Under the pieces are notes generated by a model. That model was not told the origin of the DNA and ran no database searches. It worked only from the letters and a program-made list of their open reading frames with translations. The translations under genes were made by a program, and so were the position numbers. DNA of 64,000 nucleotides from a virus, in IMG/VR virus record IMGVR_UViG_3300037502_002391, positions 1 through 64,000 of that record; one strand, written 5' to 3'. Positions 37,571-60,871 of this stretch are shown piece after piece. The number at the start of each line of letters is the position of its first letter. The first letter of the stretch is position 1.

Positions 37571-38977
37571 TTAACTTAAATTTAATGTTGTTATACACTC
37601 TATACAATCAATAAATGATGATGAAGTATATGAATAAAAATAATTTCCTGTATATGTAATTGGATTCACATTTGTTGGTGGTATATAAGTGTTTGAGAAT
37701 GCCCCCAAATAAGTCCAACAATTATCATCCGCATCTTTTATAACTGAATTCACCACTAATGATGTTTGATAACTTTGTGTTTGTATTATTAATGTTGGAT
37801 TTGAATTTAATCCTATTGGAAGACAACTCTGGAACACATAAACCATATTACTTGATGGAGTTGGTGTTGGAGTTGGTGTTGCTGTTCTTGTAATTGTTGG
37901 TGTTACACTTGATGTTGGAGTTGGTGTTGGAGTTATCAAACAAGTTGAACAATCTGCACTAACTGCTAAAATTTCATCAAGATATATATTAGAACTAGTA
38001 ACTACTGCACTATCACTTGTATATTCAAAACATCTTTGTTCTCCATCTACAACTGCCCTTATAGATTCACCAATATTAATTGGAATACCTGAAAATATTA
38101 AATCTTGATATGCATAGTAATCAACATTTGTTGAACATTCTGTTAAAACCCTTGTTCCTGCAAATGCAAATGTTTTATCCAAAACATTATATGTCACATT
38201 TCCTGATATAATAATATTATTAGTTGGGGTTACAGTTGGTGTTGGTGTTGGTGATGTAGTTGGTGCATTATATGTGTATCCTGATAAATTGAAATTTACA
38301 GCCAAACCACCAGTTGATGATGGGGTTGGGGTTGGGGTTGGGGTTCTTGTTGTGGTTGGTGTTGTAGTTGGAGTGGGTGTTGTAGTTGGTGATAAATCAC
38401 AATTAAATATAGCAGAAAAATCAATTATATTGCAAACACTTGGGCTTGGTGTTGGTGTTGGGCAAGAACCACTAAAAACAATTCCTGTATATAAATCAGG
38501 ATATGATTCTGTATAACATGGTGATTTGCCATATAACAAACATTCACCACCAAGTGTTGAACTTAAACACCATTTGGATTTTTCTGTATTAAAATATATT
38601 GCACCTCCTGTTTCACCTGTATAATAAACATATCCATCATATAAAACATTTGCAATTGAGTAGTTGCCAACATTTGAACCTAAAATGCCATATTGTGTTG
38701 ATGCACAGAAATTTTGAATAGCATCACCTGGAATAGTTTCTGGTTCAAAAGGTATCTGAAATGCTTCAACTAAATCTGGACATTTTTCTTGCTCAATAAA
38801 TAAGGTACCTTCTGAATCATATAAATCCCCAAGTTCATTATATTCCAAAACACTAGCATATCCATTATAGGAATTGCCAATAATATTATAAACTTCACCA
38901 ACATTTGGTATTTTTGATGTTATATCAAATCTAAATTTATTTCCATTAGAACAATCTTCAAATAATATTAAACTCAT
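37571..38977 (-). CDS. Virion protein with Thr-Pro linkers (468 aa)
   Basis: Beta-rich modules separated by three or four low-complexity linkers of Thr, Pro and Ser ([67 protein letters not shown]). Starts MSLILFEDCSNGNKFRFDITS. The linkers resemble flexible O-glycosylated stalks. The architecture matches the giant proteins at 53481 and 57275 in miniature. C-terminus ends in SFIDCIECITTLNLS. No enzyme motif. Confidence 0.75.
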   Translation of the reverse strand: MSLILFEDCSNGNKFRFDITSKIPNVGEVYNIIGNSYNGYASVLEYNELGDLYDSEGTLFIEQEKCPDLVEAFQIPFEPETIPGDAIQNFCASTQYGILGSNVGNYSIANVLYDGYVYYTGETGGAIYFNTEKSKWCLSSTLGGECLLYGKSPCYTESYPDLYTGIVFSGSCPTPTPSPSVCNIIDFSAIFNCDLSPTTTPTPTTTPTTTRTPTPTPTPSSTGGLAVNFNLSGYTYNAPTTSPTPTPTVTPTNNIIISGNVTYNVLDKTFAFAGTRVLTECSTNVDYYAYQDLIFSGIPINIGESIRAVVDGEQRCFEYTSDSAVVTSSNIYLDEILAVSADCSTCLITPTPTPTSSVTPTITRTATPTPTPTPSSNMVYVFQSCLPIGLNSNPTLIIQTQSYQTSLVVNSVIKDADDNCWTYLGAFSNTYIPPTNVNPITYTGNYFYSYTSSSFIDCIECITTLNLS

Positions 38978-38986
38978 TATTAATAA

Positions 38987-39319: not shown

Positions 39320-42040
39320 ATGAATATATTAGGTCATGCACCATTCATAGGCATAACAGGTTATGCAAAACACTCCAGATTATTTTTCACAACATTAAAT
39401 AAATATCACAATGTAAAAATAAGGAATAGCACAATTGGTGCAAATTGGTCTGGTTACAACAATGAACCACATAGCAATGAAACATATTTCACAGATGATA
39501 TGGAGGATATGTTAATATTGCAAACATTAACAAATGCTAATGGATCAAAAACAGATTATCCAATTTACAACCACAATGATAATTTTAAGCCAGATGTTCA
39601 CATTATATTGGGTGAGATGAATGATGAATATTTTTATCAAGATTATGATGGGTTTAAAATTGCATATAATGTATGGGAAACAACAAAATATCCCGAAGAT
39701 TTTTTCAATAGATTATTTTATTTTGACCAAGTTTGGGTACCAAGCAAATGGCAACGTGATTGCTTGATTAATCAAGGTTATCCAAGTGCAAAAATATTTG
39801 TTGTGCCAGAAGGTGTTGATGTTGATTTTTTCAAACCCAAAAATGAAATTAAACCAAAGGATAAATTTAGGTTTTTACATTTTGGAAGATGGGATTATAG
39901 AAAATCAACAACAGAAGTTTTAAGAGCATTTTCAGAAACATTTAAAGATGTAAATGATGTTGAATTGATTTGTTCTGTTGAAAACCCATATTCTTTTGAT
40001 GGATTGAATTCAACAATTGAAAGATTTTCACATCATAACATTGATACAACAAAGATAGTTGATGTTGGGTTTGTATCTGATCAGGAATATTTGGAATACC
40101 TTCAAAATGGTGATGTTTTTGTTTCTTGTGCAAGAAGTGAAGGTTGGAATCTACCTTTGATTGAGGCTATGTCTTGTGGAACACCATCCATATATTCAAA
40201 CTGTACTGGTCAATTGGAATTTGCTGAAGGCAAAGGAATTCCTATTGATATTATAGAATATAAACCAGCAAATATTGAAAGAAGTCATTTCCCTGGTGAT
40301 TATGCTGAACCAAATTTTGATGATTTATCAAAAAAAATGCTTGATGTATATAATAATTACCAATATCATAAGCAAAAAGCACTTGATGAATCAAGACAAA
40401 TTCAAGAAAACTTCAACTGGGATTCTATTGCTTTGATTGCTTCCAGCATATTGAACAATATTCAAAAAACATATAAAAATGATTTTGTATTTGTAACAGC
40501 TGGAAACCTTGAATATATGCCAGTCATTGAGCAATTAGTTAAATCACTATTATTATTTAGCAATAGAAAAATAATTGTATATGGTGTTTCTTGTTATGCC
40601 CCATTCAATTATCCAAATATGATAAAAAAAATCATAAACCCAGAGAACATTTCAAAACATGATAAGTGGTATTGGAAACAATATGCTTGTATTGAATCTA
40701 CAAATGAATATTTTGAAAATTTTGTTTGGATTGATGGTGATACAATTGCAAATTACAATATTGATAATGTTTCAAAATATTTTGATAATATTGAAAATTA
40801 CCCCATACCTGATATACATAGACAAGAAGACTTCTTTGGCTCATATAATGGAGTAAGCCAATCATTTAATGAAGAATTATGCAAGAAATACTTGGTAAAA
40901 AAATCAAGACCATTTGCACATATTTGCTTTTATGTTTACAATAAAAAATGTAAATGGTGGTTTGATGAAATTATTGAAATTTATAGAAACAATTTAGATG
41001 AATATGGAAAATTATTCATATGGAATGATGAAGGTATTGATAATTTTTTAAGATGGAAATATAACTTTAAAAAATATTTGCCTTTATCAAACTTTGATAC
41101 ATCAGCATATGATGGTGATTTTGGCAATATGAACTCCACATTAAATGATTTTTTAACATTCTGGAATGAACCTGGGCCAAAAAACTTTAATAGAATATAT
41201 GGCTATCAATACATACCAAAAGATAAATCAGATATAATTTATTTTCACGGAAATAAAGATTGCAACATATCTGAAAGAATGACAACATTCATCAATATGA
41301 TGAAAAATGAATCCTTTTATAATTCTGAATACTTTTACACAAGCATTTATAATATAGAAAATTTTGGAGATATAAAGGATGTTCATGGTGGCACAATACA
41401 AATTGCTGAAAAATATGGTTGGGGTAGAGCTATATACCATGAAATTTACAATCTTGAAGATTATTATCACAATAGAATAAAAAGTATTAAAAGTGGTGAC
41501 ATTGTTGTTGATTTAGGCGCAAATATTGGAGTTTTTAATAGATGGGCATATGCACAAGGTGCATCAAAAGTAATATCTTTTGAGCCAGACAAAAGATATT
41601 ATAAATTATTAAAATTAAATGCTCACCCAAAATCACATCTATTTAATGCTGCTATGTCTAATAAAATTGGTGAAATTCATTTATATGAAAGTAATCATTT
41701 AGGCGGATCAAACATTTTTGTATCCAATACAAATAATGTAACCCATTACCCTGTTAGAACATACAATTTGGATTACTTGTTTGAAACAGGTCTTGTTGAT
41801 AAAATTGATTTCCTAAAAGTTGATATTGAAGGTGCTGAAATATTAGTCTTTGATGGAATATCAGATGATAATTTAAAAAAAATAAACAATATTGCAATGG
41901 AGTACCACCACTCACATTTAGGTTTTGATGAAGATTTAAGGCACAATTTTATTGTAAGATTAAATAATCTTGGATTTAACTCTCACATTTTGTTTTTGGG
42001 TACAAACAATGCATTACAATTAATACACTTTTGGAAATGA
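39320..42040 (+). CDS. Two-glycosyltransferase plus FkbM methyltransferase fusion (906 aa)
   Basis: Three domains. About 1-380: GT4-type glycosyltransferase with HAPFIGITGYAKHSR, FGRWDYRKS and the E-x7-E motif EGWNLPLIE (274-282). About 390-640: a second, GT-A-like domain with VFVTAGNLEYMP and the DxD-like WIDGDT (470-475). About 700-890: FkbM-type SAM methyltransferase with VVDLGANIG (729-737), ISFEPDK and FLKVDIEGAE. Such fusions modify glycans in bacterial envelopes; in a phage beside fibre genes the likely target is fibre or capsid protein glycan or host surface polysaccharide. It begins the rightward cluster 39320-45431 and overlaps the next start by four bases (ATGA). Substrates not predictable. 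Confidence 0.85.
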   Translation: MNILGHAPFIGITGYAKHSRLFFTTLNKYHNVKIRNSTIGANWSGYNNEPHSNETYFTDDMEDMLILQTLTNANGSKTDYPIYNHNDNFKPDVHIILGEMNDEYFYQDYDGFKIAYNVWETTKYPEDFFNRLFYFDQVWVPSKWQRDCLINQGYPSAKIFVVPEGVDVDFFKPKNEIKPKDKFRFLHFGRWDYRKSTTEVLRAFSETFKDVNDVELICSVENPYSFDGLNSTIERFSHHNIDTTKIVDVGFVSDQEYLEYLQNGDVFVSCARSEGWNLPLIEAMSCGTPSIYSNCTGQLEFAEGKGIPIDIIEYKPANIERSHFPGDYAEPNFDDLSKKMLDVYNNYQYHKQKALDESRQIQENFNWDSIALIASSILNNIQKTYKNDFVFVTAGNLEYMPVIEQLVKSLLLFSNRKIIVYGVSCYAPFNYPNMIKKIINPENISKHDKWYWKQYACIESTNEYFENFVWIDGDTIANYNIDNVSKYFDNIENYPIPDIHRQEDFFGSYNGVSQSFNEELCKKYLVKKSRPFAHICFYVYNKKCKWWFDEIIEIYRNNLDEYGKLFIWNDEGIDNFLRWKYNFKKYLPLSNFDTSAYDGDFGNMNSTLNDFLTFWNEPGPKNFNRIYGYQYIPKDKSDIIYFHGNKDCNISERMTTFINMMKNESFYNSEYFYTSIYNIENFGDIKDVHGGTIQIAEKYGWGRAIYHEIYNLEDYYHNRIKSIKSGDIVVDLGANIGVFNRWAYAQGASKVISFEPDKRYYKLLKLNAHPKSHLFNAAMSNKIGEIHLYESNHLGGSNIFVSNTNNVTHYPVRTYNLDYLFETGLVDKIDFLKVDIEGAEILVFDGISDDNLKKINNIAMEYHHSHLGFDEDLRHNFIVRLNNLGFNSHILFLGTNNALQLIHFWK

Positions 42041-42699
42041 GCAAGTTAAATGAAATTGGTTTAAAATACCAAACAGACAAATCATCAATAATTCATGATT
42101 ATTTAAGGAAATATGAAAAGTATTTACCTTTTAAACAAAGTGATTTTTTAAAAATTTTAGAAATAGGTGTTCTTAATGGATCATCATTAAAAATGTGGAA
42201 AGAATATTTCTATAGTTCATTAGTCATTGGACTTGATATAGATGAAGAATGTAGAAAATATGAAGAAGATAGAATCATAATTGAAATTGGTTCACAAAAT
42301 GATGAACATTTTTTATCTAGGGTGTCTAGCCATTATGGTCTATTTGATTTAATTGTTGATGATGGATCACACATAAATTCAGATGTAATATTTTCTTTTA
42401 AACATTTATTTAATAGCCTAAATAGTGGGGGTGTATATATTGTTGAAGACTCTTTAACATCTTATTCACCTTATTATGGGGGTTCATTTGATGGTGATAA
42501 TACCATCATTAGTTATTTTAAAAAACAAATAGATTTGGTAAATTTCAATGGGGAGTTAAATGAGGTAAATCCAAATGAGAATGCTAGAAAAGATTCTGAA
42601 TTGCTTCAACAATTCATAAAAAATGGAAAAAATGAATTAGGGATTAATATTGAATCAATTAATTTCATCAACTCTGCAATAATAATAACTAAAAGATAA
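42037..42699 (+). CDS. SAM-dependent methyltransferase (220 aa)
   Basis: Class I methyltransferase: LKILEIGVLNGSSLKMWKEYF (motif I region, EIGVLNGSS), VIGLDIDEE, then DLIVDDGSHINSDVI and GGVYIVEDS. The DDGSH and ED motifs resemble the MycE/CmcI-like sugar O-methyltransferases. Start is ATG 42037 rather than TTG 42031, overlapping the preceding stop (ATGA). Probably methylates a sugar placed by the neighbouring glycosyltransferases. Confidence 0.8.
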   Translation: MSKLNEIGLKYQTDKSSIIHDYLRKYEKYLPFKQSDFLKILEIGVLNGSSLKMWKEYFYSSLVIGLDIDEECRKYEEDRIIIEIGSQNDEHFLSRVSSHYGLFDLIVDDGSHINSDVIFSFKHLFNSLNSGGVYIVEDSLTSYSPYYGGSFDGDNTIISYFKKQIDLVNFNGELNEVNPNENARKDSELLQQFIKNGKNELGINIESINFINSAIIITKR

Positions 42700-42704
42700 T
42701 TATA

Positions 42705-45431
42705 ATGGCTCACCTTGAACAACAAGATTTTTGCTTAAAAGTTAAGCAAAAATTCCCTAATTTTTTTAAAAATAAAAATGTATTAGATATTGGATCTCTT
42801 GATGTCAATGGTAATAATAAACAATTATTTGAAGATTGTAATTATTTAGGCATTGATGTTGGAGAAGGTAAAAATGTTGATTTTGTTAGTATTGGTCACT
42901 TGTTTGATGGACCAGATAATTATTTTGACACAATCATATCCACAGAAGTTTTTGAACATGATATGTTTTATGAAGATACTATAAAAAATATTATGAGGAT
43001 GTTAAAACCTGGTGGTCTATTTTTATTTACTTGTGCTGCACCTGGGAGACCTGAACATGGTACTAGAAGATGTGGTGAAGAATGTGCGCCACTATTAATT
43101 CAAATTAATGAAAATTGGGCTGACTATTATAAAAATTTAGAAGAAAATGATATTAGAAAAATTCCACAATTTAATGAAACATTTCCTGATTGTTATTTTC
43201 AATATAAAAATACAGATATTGAAATTCCTTGTGATTTATACTTTTATGGTATAAAAGGTGGTGAAAAATATTTGGTAGATAATATAAATGTTCACTATGA
43301 TAAAAATCATTTTAGTGAACACGTATTTGTAATTGATTGTTGGCCAAATAATGAAGCCAAAGAAAATGATTTAATAAATTTAATAAAATTATTAAAAGTT
43401 TTTAATATTGAAATATTACTAACTGGTCATTATCCAATAAAACCAGAAATACAAAAAATGGTGGATTATTTTTTATATGATAAAAAAAATTCACTACTAA
43501 AATATAATGAGTTTATTGATTATTCTGTTGCAAGTGGAAGATTTTCTAATATGAATAATTACATTCTTGAAAATCAAATGGAGTTTCACCATGATTTTGC
43601 AATATGGGAAACAATGCAAAATGCATTCAATTTTTGCAAAGTATTGGAAAAAAAATATATACACTTTTTTGAATATGATAATCTACCAAACATTTATCAA
43701 TATAGGCAATCTTTTTTAGAAAGAATACTAGATTTTGATGCAATAATATATGAATATGATACTATGTCATCAATTGATTCTCACTTAGCACCATATTGTG
43801 CTACTTTTATTTTTTCAATAAAAACAGACATTGCAATAAAAACAATAAATCAAATAAAAACAAAATTTGATTATTTCACAAATAAGCCTTTAGGTTGGCA
43901 ATTAGAAAAGGTTTTTTTAAGTTGTTTAAAAAATGTAACAAATAATATTTTAAAATCTGAATATATTGCAAATAATAATGAGTTAAACACACAAGCAGTT
44001 TGGAATAGAGATGGTGTTGATAGAAATGGTGCAAAATTGCAAATATATTTAGGTGTTGAATTTAATGGTGATTTATATATTCATTTAATATCTGGATTCC
44101 ATGAAGTAAAGGAAGAAAATAATTACTTGATTGAAGTAAATTATGATAATTACAAAAAATTTATACCTTTAAAAAAAGGAAAATTTTTATTAGAAAAGAT
44201 AGGAAAATATAAAAAAGGTGGTAGAGTAAAATCATATTTAGATGGTGTTGAAATTTTCAATGAATATCTAAATGAAGACTTTTATGATTTTTATAAAAAA
44301 AATACACTAACATTTAAAAATGTTCAACAAAATCATCCTCCTAAAAATATAAATATAAATTTCATAGATGGTGCATATGTTCAAATATTAGATGAGTATT
44401 TTTTTGATAGAAATTTTGAAATTAAATTTTTTGATAAAAAAACAAACAATGAAGTGTATGGAACAACAATAAAAAGTAATTGGTTTAGTAAACCAAGTTT
44501 TCAATATTTTGTTGATTGGAGAATTGAAATTAAATCAACTAACTACAACCTTGATTACAATTTAGACTTAAAAGACAAAAAAGTCTTTATTGCTTTTGAA
44601 TCTAAATCATTAGGTGATAATATTGCTTGGATTCCTTATGTTGATTTATTTCAAAAAAAACATAATTGTATAGTTGTTTGTTCAACTTTCTATAATTCAT
44701 TATTTATAAATCAATATCCAAATATTGAGTTTGCTAATCCTGGACAAACAATAAATGATATACATGCACTATATAGAATTGGTTTATTCTATGATGGTGA
44801 AACTTTTGATTCAAAAAAACACCCATCAAATCCAATTAAAGAACCATTAATGAAGATTGCAAGTGATATTCTTGGTTTAGATTTTATTGAAGAGAAACCA
44901 AAATTACCTTTACTATCTAATAAAAAAGTAAAACGAGTTTGCATTGCACCTCACTCAACATCACAATGTAAGTATTGGAATAACCCTACTGGATGGCAAG
45001 AAGTTGTTGACTACTTGAACAATGTTGGTTATGAAGTTAGGCTTTTGTCAAAAGAAGAAGATGGATTTATGGGTAATAAAAACCCTATTGGAGTTGTAAA
45101 GCAACCACCTAGTGATACAATAGAAATATTAAAAACAATTCAAGAATCTGAATTATTTATAGGATTAAGTAGTGGTTTAAGTTGGTTGGCTTGGGCATCT
45201 GGAACACCAACAATTTTAATTTCAGGTTTTACAGATGATTATTTAGAACCAAAAAATGATTTAATTAGAATTATAAACAAAAATGTTTGTAATGGTTGTT
45301 GGCATACTCACAAATTTGATGCTGGTGATTGGAATTGGTGTCCAATGCATAAAGGAACAAGTAGAGAATTTGAATGTACAAAAGAAATAACATCAAAAAT
45401 GGTAATTAATGAAATATTAAAAATTATATAA
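42705..45431 (+). CDS. Methyltransferase-heptosyltransferase fusion (BAHT/TibC-like, 908 aa)
   Basis: N-terminal domain (about 1-130) is a class I methyltransferase: NVLDIGSLDVNGNN, FDTIISTEVFEHD, GGLFLFTCAAPG. The middle (about 200-620) is not assigned. The C-terminal domain (about 625-908) matches the autotransporter strand-loop-strand O-heptosyltransferase family: ESKSLGDNIAWIPY, then HSTSQCKYWNNPTGWQEVVDYL from residue 750, and four Cys at 862, 865, 879 and 891 (C-x2-C-x13-C-x11-C), as in the iron-binding motif of TibC-type enzymes. Those enzymes add heptose to Ser in autotransporter repeats. The neighbours encode Thr/Ser-rich fibres, so a virion substrate is plausible, but not shown. Confidence 0.85.
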   Translation: MAHLEQQDFCLKVKQKFPNFFKNKNVLDIGSLDVNGNNKQLFEDCNYLGIDVGEGKNVDFVSIGHLFDGPDNYFDTIISTEVFEHDMFYEDTIKNIMRMLKPGGLFLFTCAAPGRPEHGTRRCGEECAPLLIQINENWADYYKNLEENDIRKIPQFNETFPDCYFQYKNTDIEIPCDLYFYGIKGGEKYLVDNINVHYDKNHFSEHVFVIDCWPNNEAKENDLINLIKLLKVFNIEILLTGHYPIKPEIQKMVDYFLYDKKNSLLKYNEFIDYSVASGRFSNMNNYILENQMEFHHDFAIWETMQNAFNFCKVLEKKYIHFFEYDNLPNIYQYRQSFLERILDFDAIIYEYDTMSSIDSHLAPYCATFIFSIKTDIAIKTINQIKTKFDYFTNKPLGWQLEKVFLSCLKNVTNNILKSEYIANNNELNTQAVWNRDGVDRNGAKLQIYLGVEFNGDLYIHLISGFHEVKEENNYLIEVNYDNYKKFIPLKKGKFLLEKIGKYKKGGRVKSYLDGVEIFNEYLNEDFYDFYKKNTLTFKNVQQNHPPKNININFIDGAYVQILDEYFFDRNFEIKFFDKKTNNEVYGTTIKSNWFSKPSFQYFVDWRIEIKSTNYNLDYNLDLKDKKVFIAFESKSLGDNIAWIPYVDLFQKKHNCIVVCSTFYNSLFINQYPNIEFANPGQTINDIHALYRIGLFYDGETFDSKKHPSNPIKEPLMKIASDILGLDFIEEKPKLPLLSNKKVKRVCIAPHSTSQCKYWNNPTGWQEVVDYLNNVGYEVRLLSKEEDGFMGNKNPIGVVKQPPSDTIEILKTIQESELFIGLSSGLSWLAWASGTPTILISGFTDDYLEPKNDLIRIINKNVCNGCWHTHKFDAGDWNWCPMHKGTSREFECTKEITSKMVINEILKII

Positions 45432-46305
45432 TATTTAATATTTCATTAATATTAAAAATTTCTTCAATTGTGGAATATGGACATTCATGTACATTATAAT
45501 CAAATTGATAATCAAAAAGGTATGATCCAATTAATTGGTTTTTAACTTTAGGTTTATTTGCAATTATATTGTTATGCAATTTATAACCAAAAACATTTGG
45601 TGAAGTTCCAATCCAAAAAACAGTTGATTTTAAATTTATTGCAGTTGCAGCATGTTGTAATGATGAATCAATAAGAAAACGTTTTGATGAAATAGGTAAA
45701 ATACCAAATAATTCCATATTTGATAATTTATAATCAATTCTTTCAACACCATTTAATTCATATCCACTTTTTCTTGTAATATGATATATATGATGTGTGT
45801 TTTTATATTTATCCACAATAATTTCTGCAATATCTTGTGGCATATCTCTACACCAAGAGTATATTGATTTTGTTTCTAAATCACCTCCTGATGTTTGTAA
45901 CACAACTATTGGTTTATCTCTAAACCATTTTTTTGTATTTATCTTTTCAGAATAATTTGGATATAATTGTGGTGTTTGGTCTTTATATTCAATATTTAAT
46001 AAATCACACCAATTATTAATTAAATGCTTGTTTTTATGTATATGTCCACTTTGATTATATGGTTCATGCCTAAAAATGAGTGTATCTTTATTTTCTATAA
46101 AATCTTCATAGAAATATGGTGAATTACCTAAAGGATAAACTCTATCAACATATGGATTATTTAAAAAAACTTCTGGATATGAAACAACTAATATAAGTTT
46201 TCTATCTTTATATGTTTCTTTTATTGTTTTTGGTAATGATGTGGCTGCAACATTTTTACCTAAACCACCTTGTATGTGCCAAATTAAATATTTCTCTAAA
46301 TTCAT
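45424..46305 (-). CDS. GT9-like glycosyltransferase (heptosyltransferase type)
   Basis: 293 residues with YLIWHIQGGLGKNVAATSLPK, the GGLGKN start of GT9 enzymes, LILVVSYPEVFLNNPYVDRVYP, and FLIDSSLQHAATAINLKSTVFW near the C-terminus, which corresponds to the donor-binding region. Related enzymes transfer heptose or similar sugars to lipopolysaccharide core. It is leftward and convergent with the BAHT gene, overlapping its end by 8 bases. Shares context with the fibres and may glycosylate them. Confidence 0.75.
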   Translation of the reverse strand: MNLEKYLIWHIQGGLGKNVAATSLPKTIKETYKDRKLILVVSYPEVFLNNPYVDRVYPLGNSPYFYEDFIENKDTLIFRHEPYNQSGHIHKNKHLINNWCDLLNIEYKDQTPQLYPNYSEKINTKKWFRDKPIVVLQTSGGDLETKSIYSWCRDMPQDIAEIIVDKYKNTHHIYHITRKSGYELNGVERIDYKLSNMELFGILPISSKRFLIDSSLQHAATAINLKSTVFWIGTSPNVFGYKLHNNIIANKPKVKNQLIGSYLFDYQFDYNVHECPYSTIEEIFNINEILNII

Positions 46306-46343: not shown

Positions 46344-47258
46344 TTATAAATAAGAATCAATAGTTATTTTTGTATATTCTTCAGTGCATGAAACATTAAC
46401 AGTTGTATATCCACCCATAGCCAAACCTAAACTTTGAGAACCAGCACCTGCCATACATCTTCTTCCAACTATTAATGCACCACCACTAGCCCATATTGTA
46501 CCATTATATTCTTCTGTACATCTAACAAGATTATACCCTCCTGATACTAATGCTTCATTTTGTGTACCCATACCAATTATACTACATCTTGCATTTATTA
46601 ATGCACCACCATTAGCCCATATTGAACCATCATATTCTTCTGTACAAAATTCAGCACCAACTCCACCAAAAACAACACCTAAATTTTGTGTGCCTGCACC
46701 AGCATGTTCTCGTCTTGCATTTATTAATGCACCACCATTAGCCCAACTTGTACCATTATATTCTTCTGTATTTGCTAATGCTATCCAACCTCCAGAAACA
46801 AGAGCCTCATTTTGTGTACCAAAACCATAAAAAAAACATCTTCCTGTTATTAATGCACCACCAGATGCCCATGTTGACCCATTATATTCTTCAGTAATTG
46901 CCTGATTAGTAAGTCCACCTGCTATAAGACCTAAATTTTGTGTGCCTGCACCTGCTGACATACATCTTACAGTTATTAGTGCACCACCAGATGCCCATGT
47001 TGTACCATTGTATTCTTCTGTGCATTGTAAATTAACTGTGTCAAATCCTCCCATTACTAAACCTTCATTTTGTGTACCAGCACCTGTTAAACCTCTTCTT
47101 TGACATATCATTGCACCTCCTATAGACCAACTTGAATCTAAATAAGAAGCCATAGGTAATCTATTTGTAGTATCAAACCACAAACAAAAAGTGTCTGTAC
47201 ATATTGTTGCAGGTCTATTTGCTACTCCAACTATTTCTGTACTTTGTAGTTTTGCCAT
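46344..47258 (-). CDS. Kelch-like tail fibre paralogue 3 (304 aa)
   Basis: N-terminus MAKLQSTEIVGVANRPATIC then a Trp-Phe segment (LWFDTTN) is shared with the two genes upstream and probably attaches the fibre. The rest has about six repeats of roughly 40-45 residues with TEEYNG(T/S).WA.GGALI..R..AGAGTQN..L..GG, resembling Kelch/beta-propeller repeats of marine phage fibres. The gene is 1 base from its upstream neighbour. The repeat face positions vary most, as expected of receptor binding. Probable host recognition fibre. Confidence 0.8.
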   Translation of the reverse strand: MAKLQSTEIVGVANRPATICTDTFCLWFDTTNRLPMASYLDSSWSIGGAMICQRRGLTGAGTQNEGLVMGGFDTVNLQCTEEYNGTTWASGGALITVRCMSAGAGTQNLGLIAGGLTNQAITEEYNGSTWASGGALITGRCFFYGFGTQNEALVSGGWIALANTEEYNGTSWANGGALINARREHAGAGTQNLGVVFGGVGAEFCTEEYDGSIWANGGALINARCSIIGMGTQNEALVSGGYNLVRCTEEYNGTIWASGGALIVGRRCMAGAGSQSLGLAMGGYTTVNVSCTEEYTKITIDSYL

Positions 47259-47259
47259 A

Positions 47260-48225: not shown

Positions 48226-48231
48226 AATATT

Positions 48232-50730: not shown

Positions 50731-51326
50731 TATTTATCTTTTGGTACAAAATTAAACGCAATTGAAATCCTTTCTCCATCTGAATTGTTGGTTTCAACAT
50801 GATGCCTTACCCAACTTGGGAATATATAAAATAAAGATTCTATTGGTTTTTTAATAGCACCAAATGAATTTGATTTTGTTGTTATTCTTTCCACATCAGA
50901 TTTTAAAAAATATTCCGCAGTATCTCCTCTATGAAGAACTAAATCACCCATATCACTAAAAGGTACTGAAACATAGTAAACACCAGATAAAATACTACTC
51001 TGGTGATCATGCTCCAAATTATAATTTCCCTTTTGATTGATGTTAACCCAAAAATTACCTAATTTTAAATTTGGAACACCAATGTGTTTATAACAATTCT
51101 CATTAACAAAAATTTCAAGATTATTAAATAAATTTAATAATTCCTTTGGTAAAGGTAAAACAATATCACTACTATGCCAACCACCTCTATTTGATATTGT
51201 TGCACCTTTTGTATTTTCTTTTAACCATAAACAATATTCCTTAATTTCCTCATTGTTTATGTCTTTTACTTCAGATTCCCATATTGGTGTTGAGAACCAT
51301 AATTCTTCATGTGTTATAATTTTCAT
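50730..51326 (-). CDS. 2OG-Fe(II) oxygenase, TIGR02466-like, copy 2
   Basis: 198 residues from ATG 51326. EHDHQSSILSGVYYV carries the HxH iron motif, FIFPSWVRHHVETN the second His, and RISIAFNF the 2OG-binding Arg. Closely parallel to copy 1 but diverged (no overall near identity), so duplication is old. ATGA overlap with copy 3. Substrate unknown. Confidence 0.8.
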   Translation of the reverse strand: MKIITHEELWFSTPIWESEVKDINNEEIKEYCLWLKENTKGATISNRGGWHSSDIVLPLPKELLNLFNNLEIFVNENCYKHIGVPNLKLGNFWVNINQKGNYNLEHDHQSSILSGVYYVSVPFSDMGDLVLHRGDTAEYFLKSDVERITTKSNSFGAIKKPIESLFYIFPSWVRHHVETNNSDGERISIAFNFVPKDK

Positions 51327-51904
51327 ATATCTATATGTGTGAACCAACCAGTTAATATATATTTTGTTTGCGTGGGAGATGAAACTCCTCTATGCAAATG
51401 TGTCCAATCAGATGGCCATATCAATAACTTTCCTCTTTCTGGTGATTCAAAATGTTGTTGATAAAAAAATTCTGTTTCACCTCTATCTGTTAATGTATTC
51501 AAATATATCATCCAAACTAAAAGTCTATCAGAATGTTTTTTCCCAGCTCTTTCACAATGCCAACCAAGAAAACCCTCATTTGGTTCATATTTTTGCATAT
51601 TAAAATAGGCATATAAATCAATTGGATCCATCTTTTGCATTGCTGTTGAATGTCTATTTAAATAATCTAATACACCATTTTTAACTGTAATAACAACCTC
51701 ATCCAATAACATACCCCAAGGTTCTTTATTTAAGAAAGATGGGTCAAATGTTATGTCTGTTGATTTTTTATCACTATCAGATGATATACCTGTTGGACCA
51801 TATAAAACACCTGGTTTTTTTAAATCTGATTGTTCAAATGCATTAATCAAATTATGGCAAGTATTTATAGATAAAGCATTTTCTTTACGATATATGAAAT
51901 TCAT
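51323..51904 (-). CDS. 2OG-Fe(II) oxygenase, prolyl-hydroxylase-like, copy 3
   Basis: 193 residues. The core reads QKYEPNEGFLGWHCERAG, RLLVWMIYLNTLTDRGETEF..Q, and KLLIWPSDWTHLHRG...KYILTGWF, the layout of prolyl-4-hydroxylase-like oxygenases in marine phages. The first iron motif is H-x-E (HCE) rather than H-x-D. Proline hydroxylation is the classical activity of related enzymes, notable because nearby fibres are Thr-Pro-rich. Substrate not proven. Confidence 0.82.
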   Translation of the reverse strand: MNFIYRKENALSINTCHNLINAFEQSDLKKPGVLYGPTGISSDSDKKSTDITFDPSFLNKEPWGMLLDEVVITVKNGVLDYLNRHSTAMQKMDPIDLYAYFNMQKYEPNEGFLGWHCERAGKKHSDRLLVWMIYLNTLTDRGETEFFYQQHFESPERGKLLIWPSDWTHLHRGVSSPTQTKYILTGWFTHIDI

Positions 51905-51907: not shown

Positions 51908-52591
51908 TTAATTAAGTTTGTTTTTTTTATCTTCTGGTAATTCACCCAAAAAATTTAATATTCTACCCTCACTATCTTTTAATCTATTAAAAGAAAGATA
52001 TGGACCCATTGCATTCATAATATCTCCAGGTGAGGATGAATCATTCAAAGATTTAACTCTATTTTCAAAATATTTATGTAATGAATCTGCTTGATGTGTG
52101 TTGACATCTTTGGTATCAAAAGAACCATTATCTAATTCACCTTTAATTTTACTCCATAAGGTCAACTCTCTAACTCTATCTTTAGCAACTTGTAACATAC
52201 AACTTCTATCATATAGATTCCTATCCAAATCAATATGAGCATCCATTATATCAAATTTATTATTTTCTTCATCTTGCATTAAATCATCTATTTTTTTGTC
52301 AAGTCTTAACTTTTCAACTGTATTCTTCCTTAAATCAAAAGTAAGATTCATTAATGCATCAAAATGAGCAGACATTTCTCTAACAGATTGCCAATATTTT
52401 GAGGCAATTGTAGGATGTTTTGCATCATTTAAAACTGAAAACCTCATTTCAGTTTCAGTTCTAAAAATTTGTTTTTTATGCCAATTGTCAACTAATTCAT
52501 CTTTTAGTGTTAGAATAGTGTTAACATCTTCTTCATTTAGAATGCTAATAATTTCTTTTAAATCTTCATTAAATTGTAATTCTTTTTTCAT
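51908..52591 (-). CDS. Helical hypothetical protein (227 aa)
   Basis: Starts MKKELQFNEDLKEIISILNEEDV at ATG 52591 (32 codons after the first in-frame TTG). All helical, acidic/basic, no motif. Helical phage proteins at this position often serve in baseplate or tail assembly; no direct support. Follows the small virion-like gene by 10 bases. Confidence 0.6.
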   Translation of the reverse strand: MKKELQFNEDLKEIISILNEEDVNTILTLKDELVDNWHKKQIFRTETEMRFSVLNDAKHPTIASKYWQSVREMSAHFDALMNLTFDLRKNTVEKLRLDKKIDDLMQDEENNKFDIMDAHIDLDRNLYDRSCMLQVAKDRVRELTLWSKIKGELDNGSFDTKDVNTHQADSLHKYFENRVKSLNDSSSPGDIMNAMGPYLSFNRLKDSEGRILNFLGELPEDKKNKLN

Positions 52592-52601
52592 ATATTTTTT
52601 T

Positions 52602-52853
52602 TTAAGGTAAAATAACTTGTGGTGGATTTTGCTGTTCATTGTTTGATGGTGGTTGATAAGATTCTGCAATTGCAGCATCAACAATTGCTTGTGCTTCTTC
52701 TTTTGTCTTTTCTACAGCACCAATTCTTTGTGGCCATATAGTATTTTCTGTTACCCATATATTTCCTGGATAACCAGAAATATGTGCAAGTTCATTGTCT
52801 TCATGGGTTATAAACCCATGACCATAGTTAATAGCATAATAATATTTTAACAT
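52602..52853 (-). CDS. Small virion-like protein (83 aa)
   Basis: ATG 52853 (earlier codons are not supported). MLKYYYAINYGHGFITHEDNELAHISGYPG, a beta-rich half, then helix KTKEEAQAIVDAAIAES and Pro/Gln/Asn tail. The helix resembles short segments at ends of marine phage tail proteins. Terminator hairpin lies just upstream. Confidence 0.55.
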   Translation of the reverse strand: MLKYYYAINYGHGFITHEDNELAHISGYPGNIWVTENTIWPQRIGAVEKTKEEAQAIVDAAIAESYQPPSNNEQQNPPQVILP

Positions 52854-52865
52854 ACTAAGTTTTTT

Positions 52866-53480: not shown

Positions 53481-56400
53481 TTAAACTGTGGTAAATGTGA
53501 TTGTTGTTGTTGCTGTTATTTTATAAATGGTTGATGTTCCAACTTGTGTTACATTTGTCCCTATTACTCTATATCCATTTGGGACTTGTATGAATGCAAC
53601 ACCTGCCCCACCATTACAAGGGTTATTTGGACTTAATTGGGTTGAACCTCCTCCTCCATGATTAGAAATTGTAGGACATCCACAAAAAGCAAGAGATGTA
53701 CTATTAGTTTTATTAACTCCACAACCACCAACGCCATAAATAGATATGGTTGAATCAAGTGGAAGTGAAATTCCACCCTCACCAAAATATGTAGTAGGTT
53801 GTATAGAATAACCAGCTCCACCACCACTATTTTGTGAATTTATATTCACAAAATTACCTGTTGCTCCTGAATAGTTTTGGCAACTGCTCTTTGAACCCCC
53901 ACCTAAACTACCTAATCTACTTGCACCACCACCACCAAATCCAATTCCACTACCACAAACACCTTCAATACCAACTGAACGACCACCACCACCACCAGCA
54001 GCAGATAATATCACATTACTACTTGTATCATATAATGTTGTTGTTCCACCAGTACCACCAGGATCACAAAAACTTGAAGAGCCTGCACCTGCTGTGCCAA
54101 TTATAATTGAGTGACTTGTATTTGTTAATACTGAAATACTATTTCCTGTTGCAATACAACCACCAGCACCTCCACCACCAAAATAACCACCAGATAAATC
54201 CCCATCAGATTTTCCACCTCCACCACCTCCACCAACAAGGTTGACATTTATGTTTATTGAACAATTGGTACTTCCTGTTATTGCACCTGATGAATTAAAA
54301 CCATAGCAAGTTCCACTTACTGAAAATATCCTTTCAGTTCCCCAAGCAGAAGTATCATTATTGTTACATGATGTTAGTGATGGATAATAAATAGAACCAT
54401 TTGAACTATTGAATGTAGAATATCTACCTACTACATAATTACTAGCCAAACAAGCTGTGCTACAATTGTTTAAACCACCAAGATCCCTACCTGCTCCAAA
54501 TACTTTACAAGCAGTCAAGTTTGTTGGTGTGGTTGTTGGTGTGGTTGTTGGTGTGGTTGTTGGTGTGGTTGTTGGTGTGGTTGTTCTTGTATTAGTTGGT
54601 GTAGTGGTATTAGTCATTGTTTGAGTTGGTGTTGTTGTTGGTGTTCTTGTTGGTGTTAATGTTCTTGTTGGTGTTATGGTTGGAGTTGCAGTAGTTGATG
54701 GTGTTTGTGTTGGTGATGGTTGAGTAGGGCATGTTGTTACACTATCTATAACATTATAAGCAAATAATCCAACATTTGGATCCCTAGACCATTCATAACA
54801 GGCAAAATCATCTGTAAATGTATTTGCTGATTCTCCATTATTTGCAAATGCTAAATGATTAATATCACTATAATCATTCAAACAATTAATCTCAGAATTA
54901 ACATCATTGTCAGAATAGTAAACTTTATCATTTATAGATAATGCACCTGAACTTTTTCTAACATATGCTGTAAATGTTGCACCACTTGCTGGACAACCAT
55001 AAGTACAAGTAGCAGGTGTATTTGATGAAGCTCTAAAAGTCCTTGCATAACAGAAAATTGGTGTTGGTGTTGGTGTTGGTGTTCCTGTACTTGTTGGTGT
55101 TGTTGAAGGTGTGACTGTGTTTGTTGGCGTAACTGTATTTGTTGGTGTTGTTGTCCTTGTTGGTGTAACTGTATTTGTTGGTGTAACTGTATTTGTTGGT
55201 GTATTACTAGGTGTTGGTGGTATAGTTGGGCAACTAACTTCTATTTGAAATGTACCATTAGGTTCATTAGTTGTAACTTGAACTATTACAGTAGTTGGCT
55301 CATTTAATGTTTTTGTAAAACTATTCTGGTATAATCCAGTGAATGTTCCTGAACTAATTACATTGGTAGAATTCCATGTTACTAAAACTGTAGTATTTAC
55401 ATTACTACTACAAATAACATTGATATTTCCTGTATTTAATCCAACATTATATGTGTATATATGATATGCTTTTGTTCCACCACTATTAATGATTGAAGTA
55501 TTACAAACTCCAGTATAATTAATTGTTGCATATATTGTTGGTGTAGGTGTGTTTGTTGGTGTTACTGTATTTGTTGGTGTTATTGTGTTTGTTGGTGTAG
55601 ATGTTTTTGTTGGTGTTATTGTGTTTGTTGGTGTAATTGTATTTGTTGGTGTTATTGTATTTGTTGGTGTAATTGTATTAGAAGGTGTATTTGTTGGTGT
55701 TATTGTTCTTGTTGGTGTTATTGTGTTTGTTGGTGTTATTGTATTAGAAGGTGTATTTGTTGGTGTAATTGTATTTGTTGGTGTTATTGTTCTTGTTGGT
55801 GTAATTGTATTAGAAGGTGTATTTGTTGGTGTTATTGTTCTTGTTGGTGTTATTGTATTAGAAGGTGTATTTGTTGGTGTTATTGTGTTTGTTGGTGTTA
55901 TTGTATTAGAAGGTGTATTTGTTGGTGTTATTGTGTTTGTTGGTGTAATTGTATTAGAAGGTGTATTTGTTGGTGTTATTGTTCTTGTTGGTGTTATTGT
56001 GTTTGTTGGTGTAATTGTATTAGAAGGTGTATTTGTTGGTGTTATTGTATTAGAAGGTGTATTTGTTGGCGTTATTGTATTTGTTGGTGTTATTGTGTTT
56101 GTTGGTGTAATTGTATTAGAAGGTGTATTTGTTGGTGTTATTGTTCTTGTTGGTGTTATTGTGTTTGTTGGTGTAATTGTATTAGAAGGTGTATTTGTTG
56201 GTGTTATTGTATTAGAAGGTGTATTTGTTGGCGTTATTGTATTTGTTGGTGTTATTGTGTTTGTTGGTGTAGATGTTTTTGTTGGTGTTATTGTGTTTGT
56301 TGGTGTATTTGTTGGTGTTATTGTGTTTGTTGGTGTAGATGTTTTTGTTGGTGTTATTGTGTTTGTTGGTGTAATTGTATTTGTTGGTGTTATTGTATTT

Positions 56401-56798
56401 GTTGGTGTAATTGTATTAGAAGGTGTATTTGTTGGTGTTATTGTTCTTGTTGGTGTTATTGTGTTTGTTGGTGTTATTGTATTAGAAGGTGTATTTGTTG
56501 GTGTAATTGTAACAGTAGGAGTAATAGTTGTTGTTGGTGTAATAGTTACAGTAGGTGTTGGTGTTTTTGTTGGTGATGGTGTAATCATAGGATCAATCAA
56601 CTGAAATCCACATGATTTATTTATAGATGAAAAGTATAAATCATATATACCATAATAATACCCATCAACATTTGAATAAAAATATGGTAAAATAGCATTA
56701 TTTATTATTCTAGTTCCACCAGTTTCAGGATAAAATGTAATTGTTGAATTATACCCAGAATAATTTAAAGTATCTATATATAGAACATTACTAGCCAT
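53481..56798 (-). CDS. Giant Thr-Pro-array fibre with Gly-rich C-terminus (1105 aa)
   Basis: A short N-terminal domain (1-65), then a Thr/Pro/Asn/Ile array from about 70 to 420 built from [12 protein letters not shown] and TPTRTI units, a beta-domain ([11 protein letters not shown]...), a second short array, a Cys module near 580-690 (CTYGC...CYEWSRD), a third array and a second Cys module near 765-850 (CSTAC...[16 protein letters not shown]), then a Gly-rich tip ([15 protein letters not shown]...GGGGAGG...) to the end. Gly-rich tips occur in T-even adhesins. Arrays look like mucin-type stalks suited to O-glycosylation. No enzyme motif. Likely a long tail fibre. Confidence 0.85.
55540..56580 (-). 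repeat. Thr-Pro coding low-complexity array (about 1 kb)
   Basis: Tandem near-identical 18-base and 12-base units on the minus strand (ACA CCA ACA AAC ACA ATA and variants; Thr is always ACA, Pro always CCA). The repeat is also open on the opposite strand, giving a spurious FVGVI ORF. Such arrays expand and contract by slippage and recombination. Confidence 0.9.
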
Positions 56799-57264: not shown

Positions 57265-57274
57265 ATAATTTAAT

Positions 57275-60200
57275 TTAGAATTGTATATTTCCTGTTCCAG
57301 CATTAATCTGATAAACTTTAAATCCTGAAGGTGTGTAGGATGCTGCAACTCTTGTTCCATTTCCACTTGTATCAACACCTGATGAATTTCTATATGTTAA
57401 ACCAGAACCAATTAAAAGGTCAGGATATGTATTTGCATATTTTATAATAAGGACACCAGAACCACCAGAACCACCAGTAGTGAAAACTCTTTCAGCGCCA
57501 CCACCTCCACCACCTCTATTGGCAGTTCCACTTTGAGCAGCTAAAGGTCCTCCATTTCTACCAATACCACCATCACCACCTCCACCATTACCACCAAGAC
57601 CTTTGGTTGTTCCTGTATTATCATCATAGCAAGATCCACCTCCACCACCAGCATAATATGTTGCAGTTCCAGTAATACTAGATTCTTGACCAATACCACC
57701 ATCACCAGCCTTAGAACCAGTACCCCCAATACCATTTGAACCTTTACCACCTCCACCACCAGACCCATATGCAGGTACATTAAATGTCCCACCACCACCT
57801 GTATTGCCTTCCCCAGATATACCTGTTCCTGGTAGTCCATAATAACCAGAACCACCACCTGAACCACCAGTTGATCCATTTACTTCTTGTCTTCCACCAG
57901 CACCACCACCAGTTGTTGATATGGTACTAAAAGATGATGCACTACCATTAGCAGCAGAGCCACCCCCACCACCAATAGTCACTGAATAATTTGTGTTTTG
58001 AGCAAAAACAACACCACTATTACTTTTCATGCCACCAGCACCACCACCACCACCGTGATATTGACCAAAACCACCACCACCACCACCAGCAACAATTAAA
58101 TATTCAATAATAGTTGCATTACTTGTTGGTGTTATTGTCATTGTTGGTGTTATTGTCCTTGTTGGAGTATTTGTTGGTGTTATTGTTCTTGTTGGTGTTA
58201 TTGTGTTTGTTGGTGTTATTGTGTTTGTTGGTGTTATTGTGTTTGTTGGTGTTATTGTGTTTGTTGGTGTAATTGTGTTAGAAGGTGTATTTGTTGGTGT
58301 TATTGTGTTTGTTGGTGTTATTGTGTTTGTTGGTGTTGGTGTTGGTGTTGGTGTTGGTGGAATTATAAAATTAGTGCCTCCTGAAATAGTCAATAGTGGA
58401 GAACTAACTACAACTGAATTCCCATATATTGTAATACTTTCACCATATAAAGGTGATTGTAAATTATTTTGTTCATTATTCCAACAATCAATATAACTAT
58501 ATGTTTCATAACAAGGATTTGTACATCCAGTATTTGTTATAATATATTCTGCACATGCTACAATTATATTACCATTAACATCACATAGTGGGTATTCTGT
58601 GCTAGTTGGTGTATTTGTTGGTGTTATTGTGTTTGTTGGTGTTATTGTATTAGAAGGTGTATTTGTTGGTGTTATTGTGTTTGTTGGTGTTATTGTGTTT
58701 GTTGGTGTTATTGTATTTGTTGGTGTTATTGTACTAGTTATTGTTTGGGTAGGTGTTGGTGTTTGAGTAGATGTTGGTGTTTCTGTTGGTGTTATTGTGT
58801 TAGTAGGTGTAGATGTATTTGTTGGTGTTATTGTGTTTGTTGGTGTTATTGTGTTAGTAGGTGTAGATGTATTTGTTGGTGTTATTGTGCTTGTTGGAGT
58901 TATTGTATTAGAAGGTGTGTTTGTTGGTGTTATTGTGTTTGTTGGTGTTATTGTGTTTGTTGGTGTTATTGTGTTTGTTGGTGTTATTGTACTAGTTATT
59001 GTTTGGGTAGGTGTTGGCGTTTGTGTAGGTGTTGGCGTTTGTGTAGATGTTGGTGTTTCTGTTGGTGTTATTGTGTTAGTAGGCGTGTTTGTTGGTGTTA
59101 TTGTGTTTGTTGGTGTAATTGTATTTGTTGGTGTTATTGTGTTTGTTGATGTTATTGTGTTTGTTGGTGTTATTGTGTTAGTAGGTGTAGATGTATTTGT
59201 TGGTGTAATTGTATTTGTTGGTGTTATTGTGTTTGTTGATGTTATTGTGTTTGTTGGTGTTATTGTGTTAGTAGGTGTAGATGTATTTGTTGGTGTAGAT
59301 GTATTTGTTGGAGTTATTGTACTAGTTATTGTTTGGGTAGGTGTTGGTGTTTGAGTAGATGTTGGTGTTTCTGTTGGTGTTATTGTGTTAGTAGGTGTAG
59401 ATGTATTTGTTGGTGTAGATGTATTTGTTGGAGTTATTGTACTAGTTATTGTTTGGGTAGGTGTTGGCGTTTGTGTAGATGTTGGTGTTTCTGTTGGTGT
59501 TACTATTGGTGTTACTGTATTAGAAGGTGTGTTTGTTGGTGTTATTGTGTTAGTAGGTGTCATTGTGCTAGTAGGTGTCATTGTGCTAGTAGGTGTTGGC
59601 GTTATTGTAACACAAACTGATGCTCCTGTTATTGTACCTCCTGAGTTTGTAGAATAACAATACCCACTTCTATTGAAACTTGTACTAATACCCCAAGTAT
59701 TAGTATTATTATTAATACAAGATTCAAAATCAATATAATATGTTTGACCAATAGAACCATCAAATAATGTTGTTTTTCCACATATTTGTGTGTTTGGTTC
59801 TTCGCTACATACATCAGCACAATTTAATAATCCTGTGGAATCAACATAAACATCAAAACAATTGCATCCATTTGGATCTGGAATCAAGGAATTTCCTCTA
59901 AAATATATCTTATTATTGTTATTTATTAATCTAAAATTTGTATTGCTAAATGTTGTATATACATGATAAAAATCTTGTGGAATAGTAAAACCTGAATATT
60001 CAACTGTTAGTGAAGCATATGTCATATTCATATTAACTGGAACTAATGCCAAAGGATCACTATATTCATTAACCCCTATATTGCTAACAAGATTTCTATT
60101 TGTATTTAAATTTGGAATTACCCAAGTGTACCAAGAATAACCTGTTGTGGTATATTCTGGTACTTCATGTGTCTTAAATAAATATGCTTGTATAAAATTA

Positions 60201-60871
60201 CCATACTCATCAAGTCCACCACTATTCTGACTTATTTTTGCTGTTCTAATTTGTGGTGCAGTAACACCCCAACCAGAGAATGATATATATCTATTTAATT
60301 CATCATTAAATGTTGTTGCACTTATGGATGGACCAATACCATTTGAAAATCCTCTAAACATACCAGAACTAGCACTCATCCAATTGCTAAAATCAGTATT
60401 TAAACTAACTGGTTCAATAAATAAATAAGCATCAAGTTCTTCTGGTGTTGTTGGTGTTATAGTTGGTGTTATAGTTGGTGTTGGAGTCTTTGTTCTTGTT
60501 ACAGTTGGAGTTGGTGTTAATGTTCTTGTTGGTGTTACTGATGGTGTTTTTGTGTTTGATGGTGTTATAGATATAGTTGGTGTTATAGATGGTGTTATAG
60601 ATATAGTTGGTGTTATTGTTGGAGTTGGTGTTGGAGTTGTGCATTGTAATTCAATTACAACCCCTGCTAATAATTCATTTCTTGATACATTCTCATATAT
60701 CGGTGTGCTATTTGTTGAATCAACATAAATGTTAAATGGACCTTTTGAGTTAGATGATGGACTTAATTGAAATAAATACCTTGAACAAGCAGTAATACCT
60801 GTTATTTCACTCTCAATACTATTTACACATATTGGGTCAGTATTTATTACAAATATTGTATAATCTACCAT
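57275..60871 (-). CDS. Giant Thr-Pro-array fibre with Gly-rich C-terminus (1198 aa)
   Basis: N-terminal beta-domain (1-90), a Thr-Pro array, a beta-domain (about 150-330), a Cys module (about 335-425; CNCFDVYV...CADVC...GYCYSTNSGGTITGASVC), then a long array from about 430 to 760 ([25 protein letters not shown]), a short Cys domain (CNTNG-type, CTNPCYETYSYIDCW), another array and a Gly-rich tip (GGGGGGFGQYHGGGGGAGG...) with IKYANTYPDLLIG near the end. Same plan as the 53481 gene, so they are distant paralogues. Start is ATG 60871; TTG 60883 rejected. Likely long tail fibre. Confidence 0.85.
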   Translation of the reverse strand: MVDYTIFVINTDPICVNSIESEITGITACSRYLFQLSPSSNSKGPFNIYVDSTNSTPIYENVSRNELLAGVVIELQCTTPTPTPTITPTISITPSITPTISITPSNTKTPSVTPTRTLTPTPTVTRTKTPTPTITPTITPTTPEELDAYLFIEPVSLNTDFSNWMSASSGMFRGFSNGIGPSISATTFNDELNRYISFSGWGVTAPQIRTAKISQNSGGLDEYGNFIQAYLFKTHEVPEYTTTGYSWYTWVIPNLNTNRNLVSNIGVNEYSDPLALVPVNMNMTYASLTVEYSGFTIPQDFYHVYTTFSNTNFRLINNNNKIYFRGNSLIPDPNGCNCFDVYVDSTGLLNCADVCSEEPNTQICGKTTLFDGSIGQTYYIDFESCINNNTNTWGISTSFNRSGYCYSTNSGGTITGASVCVTITPTPTSTMTPTSTMTPTNTITPTNTPSNTVTPIVTPTETPTSTQTPTPTQTITSTITPTNTSTPTNTSTPTNTITPTETPTSTQTPTPTQTITSTITPTNTSTPTNTSTPTNTITPTNTITSTNTITPTNTITPTNTSTPTNTITPTNTITSTNTITPTNTITPTNTITPTNTPTNTITPTETPTSTQTPTPTQTPTPTQTITSTITPTNTITPTNTITPTNTITPTNTPSNTITPTSTITPTNTSTPTNTITPTNTITPTNTSTPTNTITPTETPTSTQTPTPTQTITSTITPTNTITPTNTITPTNTITPTNTPSNTITPTNTITPTNTPTSTEYPLCDVNGNIIVACAEYIITNTGCTNPCYETYSYIDCWNNEQNNLQSPLYGESITIYGNSVVVSSPLLTISGGTNFIIPPTPTPTPTPTNTITPTNTITPTNTPSNTITPTNTITPTNTITPTNTITPTNTITPTRTITPTNTPTRTITPTMTITPTSNATIIEYLIVAGGGGGGFGQYHGGGGGAGGMKSNSGVVFAQNTNYSVTIGGGGGSAANGSASSFSTISTTGGGAGGRQEVNGSTGGSGGGSGYYGLPGTGISGEGNTGGGGTFNVPAYGSGGGGGKGSNGIGGTGSKAGDGGIGQESSITGTATYYAGGGGGSCYDDNTGTTKGLGGNGGGGDGGIGRNGGPLAAQSGTANRGGGGGGAERVFTTGGSGGSGVLIIKYANTYPDLLIGSGLTYRNSSGVDTSGNGTRVAASYTPSGFKVYQINAGTGNIQF
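58120..59610 (-). repeat. Thr-Pro coding low-complexity arrays in the second giant fibre
   Basis: Arrays at about 58120-58365 and 58595-59610 (with a smaller one at 60440-60640), separated by short Cys domains. Same codon choice (ACA for Thr, CCA for Pro) as the 55540-56580 array, with extra TQTPTPTQTITSTI blocks that recur four times. Confidence 0.88.

Follow-up and report, generated by a model that had tools for sequence, protein, structure and literature searches.

We suggest that a large phage has, within its tail-fibre locus, an accessory island made up of two separable modules, each of which would modify its own cognate type of fibre, a reading to which we give a probability of roughly 60%. 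The window analysed covers bases 1-64,000 of the 82,255-base IMG/VR record IMGVR_UViG_3300037502_002391, whose source is a large freshwater tailed-phage lineage. The locus is probably a variable tail-fibre (host-recognition) region, in which the island (~39.3-52.7 kb) lies between genes for threonine-proline-rich (Thr-Pro) fibres. The island consists of two units, a plus-strand module of glycosyltransferase (GT), methyltransferase, and BAHT genes (module 1) and a contiguous minus-strand Kelch cassette (module 2), with Thr-Pro fibre genes flanking both. Enzyme families, catalytic residues, the Kelch fold, gene order, statistical linkage to fibre types, and the absence of the island from close relatives were all observed. 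A preliminary description of the window had reported these enzymes as interleaved with fibres. Every gene it named is present where it had been placed, and the enzymes do lie between Thr-Pro fibre genes; however, the sulfotransferase and oxygenases belong to the Kelch cassette, separate from module 1.

The third gene of module 1 encodes a fusion protein whose C-terminal part (residues 543-907) scores 290.6 bits against TIGR04414 (cut-off, 200) and aligns to the solved TibC structure in the PDB with E=5e-62. By these matches, it is a genuine member of the TibC/Aah-type protein O-heptosyltransferase family. The residues essential for TibC function have been established (PMC4358343), and the window protein keeps equivalents of the catalytic Asp110 and of the sugar-binding Thr226, Lys230, and Trp305, which are found in 86/86, 81/89, 86/89, and 89/89 viral BAHT domains, respectively. 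The four iron-finger cysteines (Cys339/342/358/370) also have equivalents here and in 88/88 viral domains. Arg286 of TibC, an adenine/ADP contact, is not kept, being Ile in the window and Arg in just 41/89 viral domains, and the donor nucleotide may therefore differ from that of TibC. A further difference from TibC/Aah is that the BAHT domain is preceded by a fused methyltransferase and middle domain and is phage-encoded, with no autotransporter: no passenger with strand-loop-strand repeats was recognised on reading the window's open reading frames (ORFs).

The methyltransferase/BAHT fusion had been recognised correctly in the preliminary description, and its methyltransferase part matches phrog_32762 (162 bits). 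The same is true of the S-adenosylmethionine (SAM)-dependent methyltransferase encoded upstream, though its score against Pfam Methyltransf_24 (22.3 bits) is slightly below the cut-off of 26.3. For the first gene, described as a GT4/GT-A/FkbM fusion, the outer domains are supported (Glycos_transf_1, 50 bits; FkbM, 69.8 bits), whereas the middle region is GT-A-like by a DGD motif seen by eye and has no family assigned. In our sample of 80 viral BAHT loci (54 nonredundant), the GT4-GTA-FkbM partner is found in 49 and a homologue of the methyltransferase in 23, and GT4 hidden Markov model (HMM) matches in 42. These and the following counts come from a comparison set of several hundred viral loci. 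The pattern-scan samples (up to 120 and 80 loci) do not sample the phylogeny at random, the random control consists of 120 loci fetched by an arbitrary 15-mer, the ORFs were called mechanically by script, the Fisher tests and parsimony count do not fully remove relatedness, and absences are weak because the records are fragments.

In viruses, BAHT genes tend to accompany one type of fibre. Collagen-like Gly-Ser-Thr arrays, (GSSGTS)n, occur in a neighbouring fibre at 28/54 nonredundant BAHT loci, most of them within ~2.2 kb, and in 16/54 this fibre is the next gene, 50-98 bp downstream of the BAHT module. The reverse scan, by array DNA, found BAHT in 9/120 Gly-Ser-Thr loci vs 0/120 Thr-Pro and 0/120 random loci (p=4e-5). 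Since the adjacency switches about 13 times over the BAHT tree, the pairing is not one inherited arrangement. Bacterial BAHT loci have a Gly-Ser-Thr array in 0/79 cases and a large GG-rich ORF in 45/79, fitting autotransporters. TibC acts on Ser, not Thr (eLife 2014, PMC4358343), and Gly-Ser-Thr fibres therefore fit better than Thr-Pro arrays, which are 49% Thr, 19-31% Pro, and 4-7% Ser. Two weak BAHT-HMM matches (L625 and L636) proved to be GT9-type proteins of ~318 amino acids (aa) and were excluded from the BAHT count.

Module 2 is built around three fibre genes that have no Pfam match. A 31-sequence AlphaFold2 model (predicted local distance difference test score [pLDDT], 86.5) has solved Kelch propellers as its top Foldseek matches (E ~1e-16), so that the genes described earlier as Kelch-like are now predicted to be true Kelch propeller genes. 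The sulfotransferase and the three consecutive 2-oxoglutarate (2OG) oxygenases that had been reported beside them are likewise borne out by family matches (Table 1). The sulfotransferase has conserved 5'- and 3'-phosphate motifs (PRSGST and R..S), and the nearest solved structure to its profile is human TPST1 (E=1.3e-8). In the PF13759 oxygenases, an invariant HxH...H...R (52/52) replaces the canonical HxD/E triad, and the metal site may therefore be unusual. The PF13640-type oxygenase has the HxD/E...H iron site (WHCE...H, both His in 24/24), and the nearest solved structures to its family are PiuC (2e-12), which is no proven prolyl hydroxylase, and prolyl 4-hydroxylases (P4Hs; 2e-8). A PF05118 search of the record was silent, as was its control. 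The GT9-like enzyme of the preliminary description is recognisable by motif, with no Pfam, NCBIfam, or PHROG match and a poor structure model (pLDDT 57).

The enzymes of module 2 are linked to Kelch fibres well beyond the window. A scan with EEYNG-type patterns yielded 74 Kelch loci, of which 49 are nonredundant; the sulfotransferase occurs in 24/49, PF13759 in 27/49, and the PF13640-type oxygenase in 23/49, vs 2/120, 1/120, and 1/120 random loci (p 1e-13 to 1e-16). BAHT is found in 0/74. The common order is two to three Kelch genes, a phrog_1409 gene (~228 aa), the sulfotransferase, in some cases a kinase and a nucleotidyltransferase, and then PF13759, PF13640-type, and PF13759 oxygenases. 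Homologues of the phrog_1409 protein, perhaps a fibre assembly chaperone, occur in 51/74 Kelch loci and 0/440 other loci. Locus L443 reproduces the window's module 2 order exactly, including the GT9-like gene, and its enzymes are 78-85% identical to those of the window, whereas its Kelch fibres are just 48-52% identical. A scan with the sulfotransferase as query returned no match, which we attribute to the query patterns, since homologues 49-81% identical exist in Kelch loci.

Table 1. Genes of the fibre locus and accessory island, in window coordinates
Feature	Coordinates	Strand	Basis or remark
Conserved structural protein, 728 aa, fibre-locus anchor	33200..35386	-	83% identical in L599/L600; query by which the lineage was found
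Thr-Pro fibre, 468 aa, left island edge	37571..38977	-	59 aa Thr-Pro array; 72% identical in L599/L600
GT4 + GT-A-like + FkbM methyltransferase fusion	39320..42040	+	Pfam/PHROG/NCBIfam
SAM-dependent methyltransferase	42037..42699	+	phrog_21658, 101 bits
Methyltransferase + middle domain + predicted BAHT protein O-heptosyltransferase	42705..45431	+	BAHT domain ~44331-45428
GT9-like protein	45424..46305	-	Motif only; same position and 78% identical in L443; relatives in L446, L458
Three predicted Kelch beta-propeller fibre proteins	46344..49245	-	AlphaFold2 + Foldseek; invariant TEEY[DN]G..W repeats
3'-Phosphoadenosine 5'-phosphosulfate (PAPS)-type sulfotransferase	49278..50108	-	Sulfotransfer_3, PF13469, 60.6 bits
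2OG oxygenase, PF13759 type	50092..50730	-	67.7 bits
2OG oxygenase, PF13759 type	50730..51347	-	83.8 bits
2OG oxygenase, PF13640 (P4H/PKHD) type	51323..51904	-	41 bits
phrog_1409 protein	51908..52684	-	Kelch-restricted neighbour
Giant Thr-Pro fibre, right of island	53481..56798	-	~403 aa Thr-Pro array
Giant Thr-Pro fibre	57275..60883	-	~440 aa Thr-Pro array

Locus L026 contains a sulfotransferase, an adenosine 5'-phosphosulfate (APS) kinase (Pfam APS_kinase, 41 bits), and BAHT together. There, the kinase adjoins a close sulfotransferase homologue upstream of BAHT, which supports real PAPS-dependent sulfation in that phage at least. As a general route to PAPS, the kinase-nucleotidyltransferase pair was rejected: the L479-type kinase is a weak match (24.5 bits), and Stenotrophomonas phages encode a homologue of it with no annotated sulfotransferase close by. 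Adjacent small genes for APS-kinase-like and HxGH nucleotidyltransferase proteins, possibly a minimal PAPS pathway, are present at L479:7558-8275 and L026:1069-1903, and Stenotrophomonas phage Bhz60 has an apparently fused version of 247 aa. The tyrosine of the TEEY motif could be the sulfated residue in Kelch propellers. We rejected the motif as evidence for sulfation, because the acidic motif (Glu at -1, 86% vs 77%) is no rarer where Kelch loci lack a sulfotransferase and because the loci were fetched by EEYNG-type patterns. A likeness of the Kelch ASGGALIT to the TibA acceptor NSGGAVIT (Ser313) was also discarded, BAHT being absent from the Kelch loci.

We infer the fibres as acceptors, together with the modified residue and the order of steps. 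In module 1, BAHT would start an O-glycan in the cytoplasm, before assembly, by placing heptose or a related ADP/NDP-sugar onto Ser or Thr in a fibre stalk; this glycan would then be lengthened by the GT4 and GT-A domains and capped by FkbM and the other methyltransferases. Module 2 would be a mobile Kelch-fibre unit, in which the 2OG oxygenases may hydroxylate, and the sulfotransferase may sulfate, either the Kelch propellers or a sugar placed on them by the GT9-like enzyme.

Several observations weigh against the two-module reading. The window's BAHT gene is not beside a Gly-Ser-Thr fibre, and no such fibre was found anywhere in the 82-kb record, which is itself a fragment. The sulfotransferase lacks the TPST GEET catalytic motif, TPTS/TPNS standing there in the TPST1 alignment. 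In addition, another interpretation exists for phage GT clusters located among tail fibres: the hypervariable host-recognition cluster of T4-like pelagimyophages and cyanomyophages, which like our locus combines tail fibres with many GTs, was read by its authors as modifying host lipopolysaccharide (LPS) (PMC7029224).

That precedent underlies the main rival explanation, in which the GTs, methyltransferases, and sulfotransferase remodel host surface polysaccharide, blocking superinfection or changing the receptor, and lie near fibres because the region is hypervariable and devoted to host interaction. Related islands do contain GT2, GT4, epimerase, hexapeptide transferase, and DegT genes. We nevertheless regard this explanation as unlikely, given that BAHT is a family of protein O-glycosyltransferases (PMC4358343) tied to one fibre type and missing from the Thr-Pro and Kelch samples, that the sulfotransferase and oxygenases are tied to another fibre type in a fixed order, and that inspection of the listed neighbours by eye, with no dedicated search, showed no Wzx/Wzy-like gene. 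The pelagimyophage cluster was read as modifying LPS, whereas in our data particular enzyme families pair with particular fibre types.

The preliminary description had instead proposed one concerted system, in which Thr-Pro stalks resembling mucins or hydroxyproline-rich glycoproteins (HRGPs) are hydroxylated, heptosylated, methylated, and sulfated. The long Thr/Pro arrays it noted in the giant flanking proteins are indeed there (~400 aa and ~440 aa), the enzymes co-locate with them in the window, and one oxygenase is of the P4H family. Thr-Pro fibres are also the constant partner in the lineage, standing upstream of the 728-aa protein in 45/55 nonredundant loci; two of them flank a sulfotransferase and a GT9-like gene in L619, and in L618 (TIGR04414, 286 bits) and L634 BAHT is divergent from a Thr-Pro fibre, the same arrangement as in the window. 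However, 2OG genes are not enriched at Thr-Pro loci (2/120 vs 1/120 random) and occur in at most 1/55 lineage loci, so no prolyl hydroxylase is linked to these stalks as HRGP-like hydroxylation would have it. TibC is inactive on Thr, and the array-first scan ruled out Thr-Pro arrays as general partners of the island enzymes. In the closest relatives, L599/L600, the fibre-locus proteins are 72-83% identical and the Thr-Pro fibres are kept, but the whole island is absent; in L600, a giant Thr-Pro fibre gene, one of 187 aa, and the gene for the 468-aa Thr-Pro fibre stand side by side. On the closest-relative contigs (G001/G002; 270 and 200 kb), which keep the Thr-Pro fibres, no sulfotransferase, BAHT, 2OG, or Kelch gene was found. 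As it is Kelch fibres that the oxygenases and sulfotransferase accompany, a hydroxylated Thr-Pro stalk is not supported, and we consider the concerted system quite improbable. The broader idea of fibre modification is well supported by the fibre-locus position, the BAHT family, and the enzyme-fibre linkage, and the module 2 neighbourhood recurs in another phage, at L443, in the same order.

Thr-Pro fibres appear to have enzyme partners of their own. Outside the lineage, the one enzyme that we found linked to Thr-Pro arrays is PF11397 (Skp1-type polypeptide GlcNAc-transferase, GT60), found in 10/120 vs 0/314 loci (p=2e-6) and usually <1 kb from the array; no six-frame match to it was found in the 82-kb record. 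In the window's lineage, the position upstream of the 728-aa protein, next to the Thr-Pro fibres, is a hotspot for glycan enzymes. They make up most of its non-array genes, of which 66 were scanned: GT60-type (6), GT9 (5), FkbM (4), hexapeptide acetyltransferase (4), GT29 (2), and others, and a sulfotransferase also occurs there. In L601, L602, and L632, hexapeptide acetyltransferase and/or FkbM genes lie immediately upstream of Thr-Pro fibres, and G001 carries GT60 twice, one copy being the next gene downstream of a Thr-Pro fibre, with FkbM and further transferases after it. GT60/PF11397 genes also stand beside Thr-Pro fibres in unrelated viral contigs (L102:6256-7500, L138:548-1822, L167:852-2096, and L679:14227-15474).

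It is routine for phage GTs, sulfotransferases, and 2OG oxygenases to be classed as auxiliary metabolic genes (AMGs) or as LPS modifiers of unclear function. A further explanation is that the island genes act on small molecules of the host, in its sulfur or lipid metabolism, and have no connection with the virion. PHROGs lists phrog_81 and phrog_61 as auxiliary metabolic genes, and phage sulfotransferases and 2OG oxygenases have been catalogued as AMGs of unclear function (PMC10580990). This explanation fits poorly with the fixed order beside Kelch fibres, with the Kelch-only phrog_1409, and with the known protein substrates of the BAHT family, and we hold it to be highly improbable. The pairing of enzymes with specific fibre types is a concrete alternative, testable in the cultured phages S-SKS1 and Mel-JY01.

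Mimivirus, a eukaryotic virus, has in L230 a hydroxylase/glycosyltransferase for collagen-like virion proteins, which acts through Lys hydroxylation. L230 is a weak relative of the PF13640-type oxygenase (1e-4), and its glycosyltransferase is unrelated to those of the window. Cultured Microcystis phage Mel-JY01 (PP395634) has GT4 and BAHT in one ORF with a Gly-Ser-Thr fibre nearby; unlike the window, it has no Kelch/sulfotransferase/2OG unit in the 16 kb read. Cultured Synechococcus phage S-SKS1 (HQ633071) has a sulfotransferase between Kelch-type ORFs and a 2OG-like ORF nearby, but the sulfotransferase is just 28-29% identical and there is no BAHT in the 11 kb read. In mycobacteriophages, too, phage GTs glycosylate virion proteins; as cited in PMC12619734, the targets there are capsid and tail tube and the enzymes are unlike those of the window. 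Within an open-access library, we found no paper on BAHT, GT60, or the Kelch-sulfotransferase-2OG unit in phages.

Extending the two-module reading, we tentatively envisage a fibre-type-specific code in large aquatic phages, though the odds are somewhat against it: Gly-Ser-Thr stalks would go with BAHT, Thr-Pro stalks with GT60, and Kelch fibres with hydroxylases and a sulfotransferase (sometimes with its own APS kinase), modules being swapped with the fibres. If so, phage fibres would bear eukaryote-like decorations that might influence receptor binding, stability, and evasion, and fibre sequence by itself would not suffice to predict host range; receptor-binding propellers that are sulfated and hydroxylated would be a novelty among phages.

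The record probably represents part of a jumbo-phage genome, since the 728-aa protein has 315 IMG/VR relatives on contigs reaching 321 kb. A large tailed phage is indicated by sigma factor and SbcCD-like genes and by the genes read in 64001-82255, T4-like by eye; at the DNA level, there was no match among 50,697 phage records. Repeats at 61421-63580 of the window resemble, by eye, Bacteroidota SprB repeats, and SprB matches were found in 3/108 neighbours of Thr-Pro arrays, which together hint at Bacteroidota hosts. Elsewhere in the window, a 102-bp unit that encodes an EF-hand-like 'DKNKNGKIDAEDF' segment is perfectly duplicated at 18816-19862, and paralogous short leucine-rich-repeat-like proteins (60-bp repeats, 'SLPEGLKVGG') form a run at 3626-7059, with similar repeats in L002.

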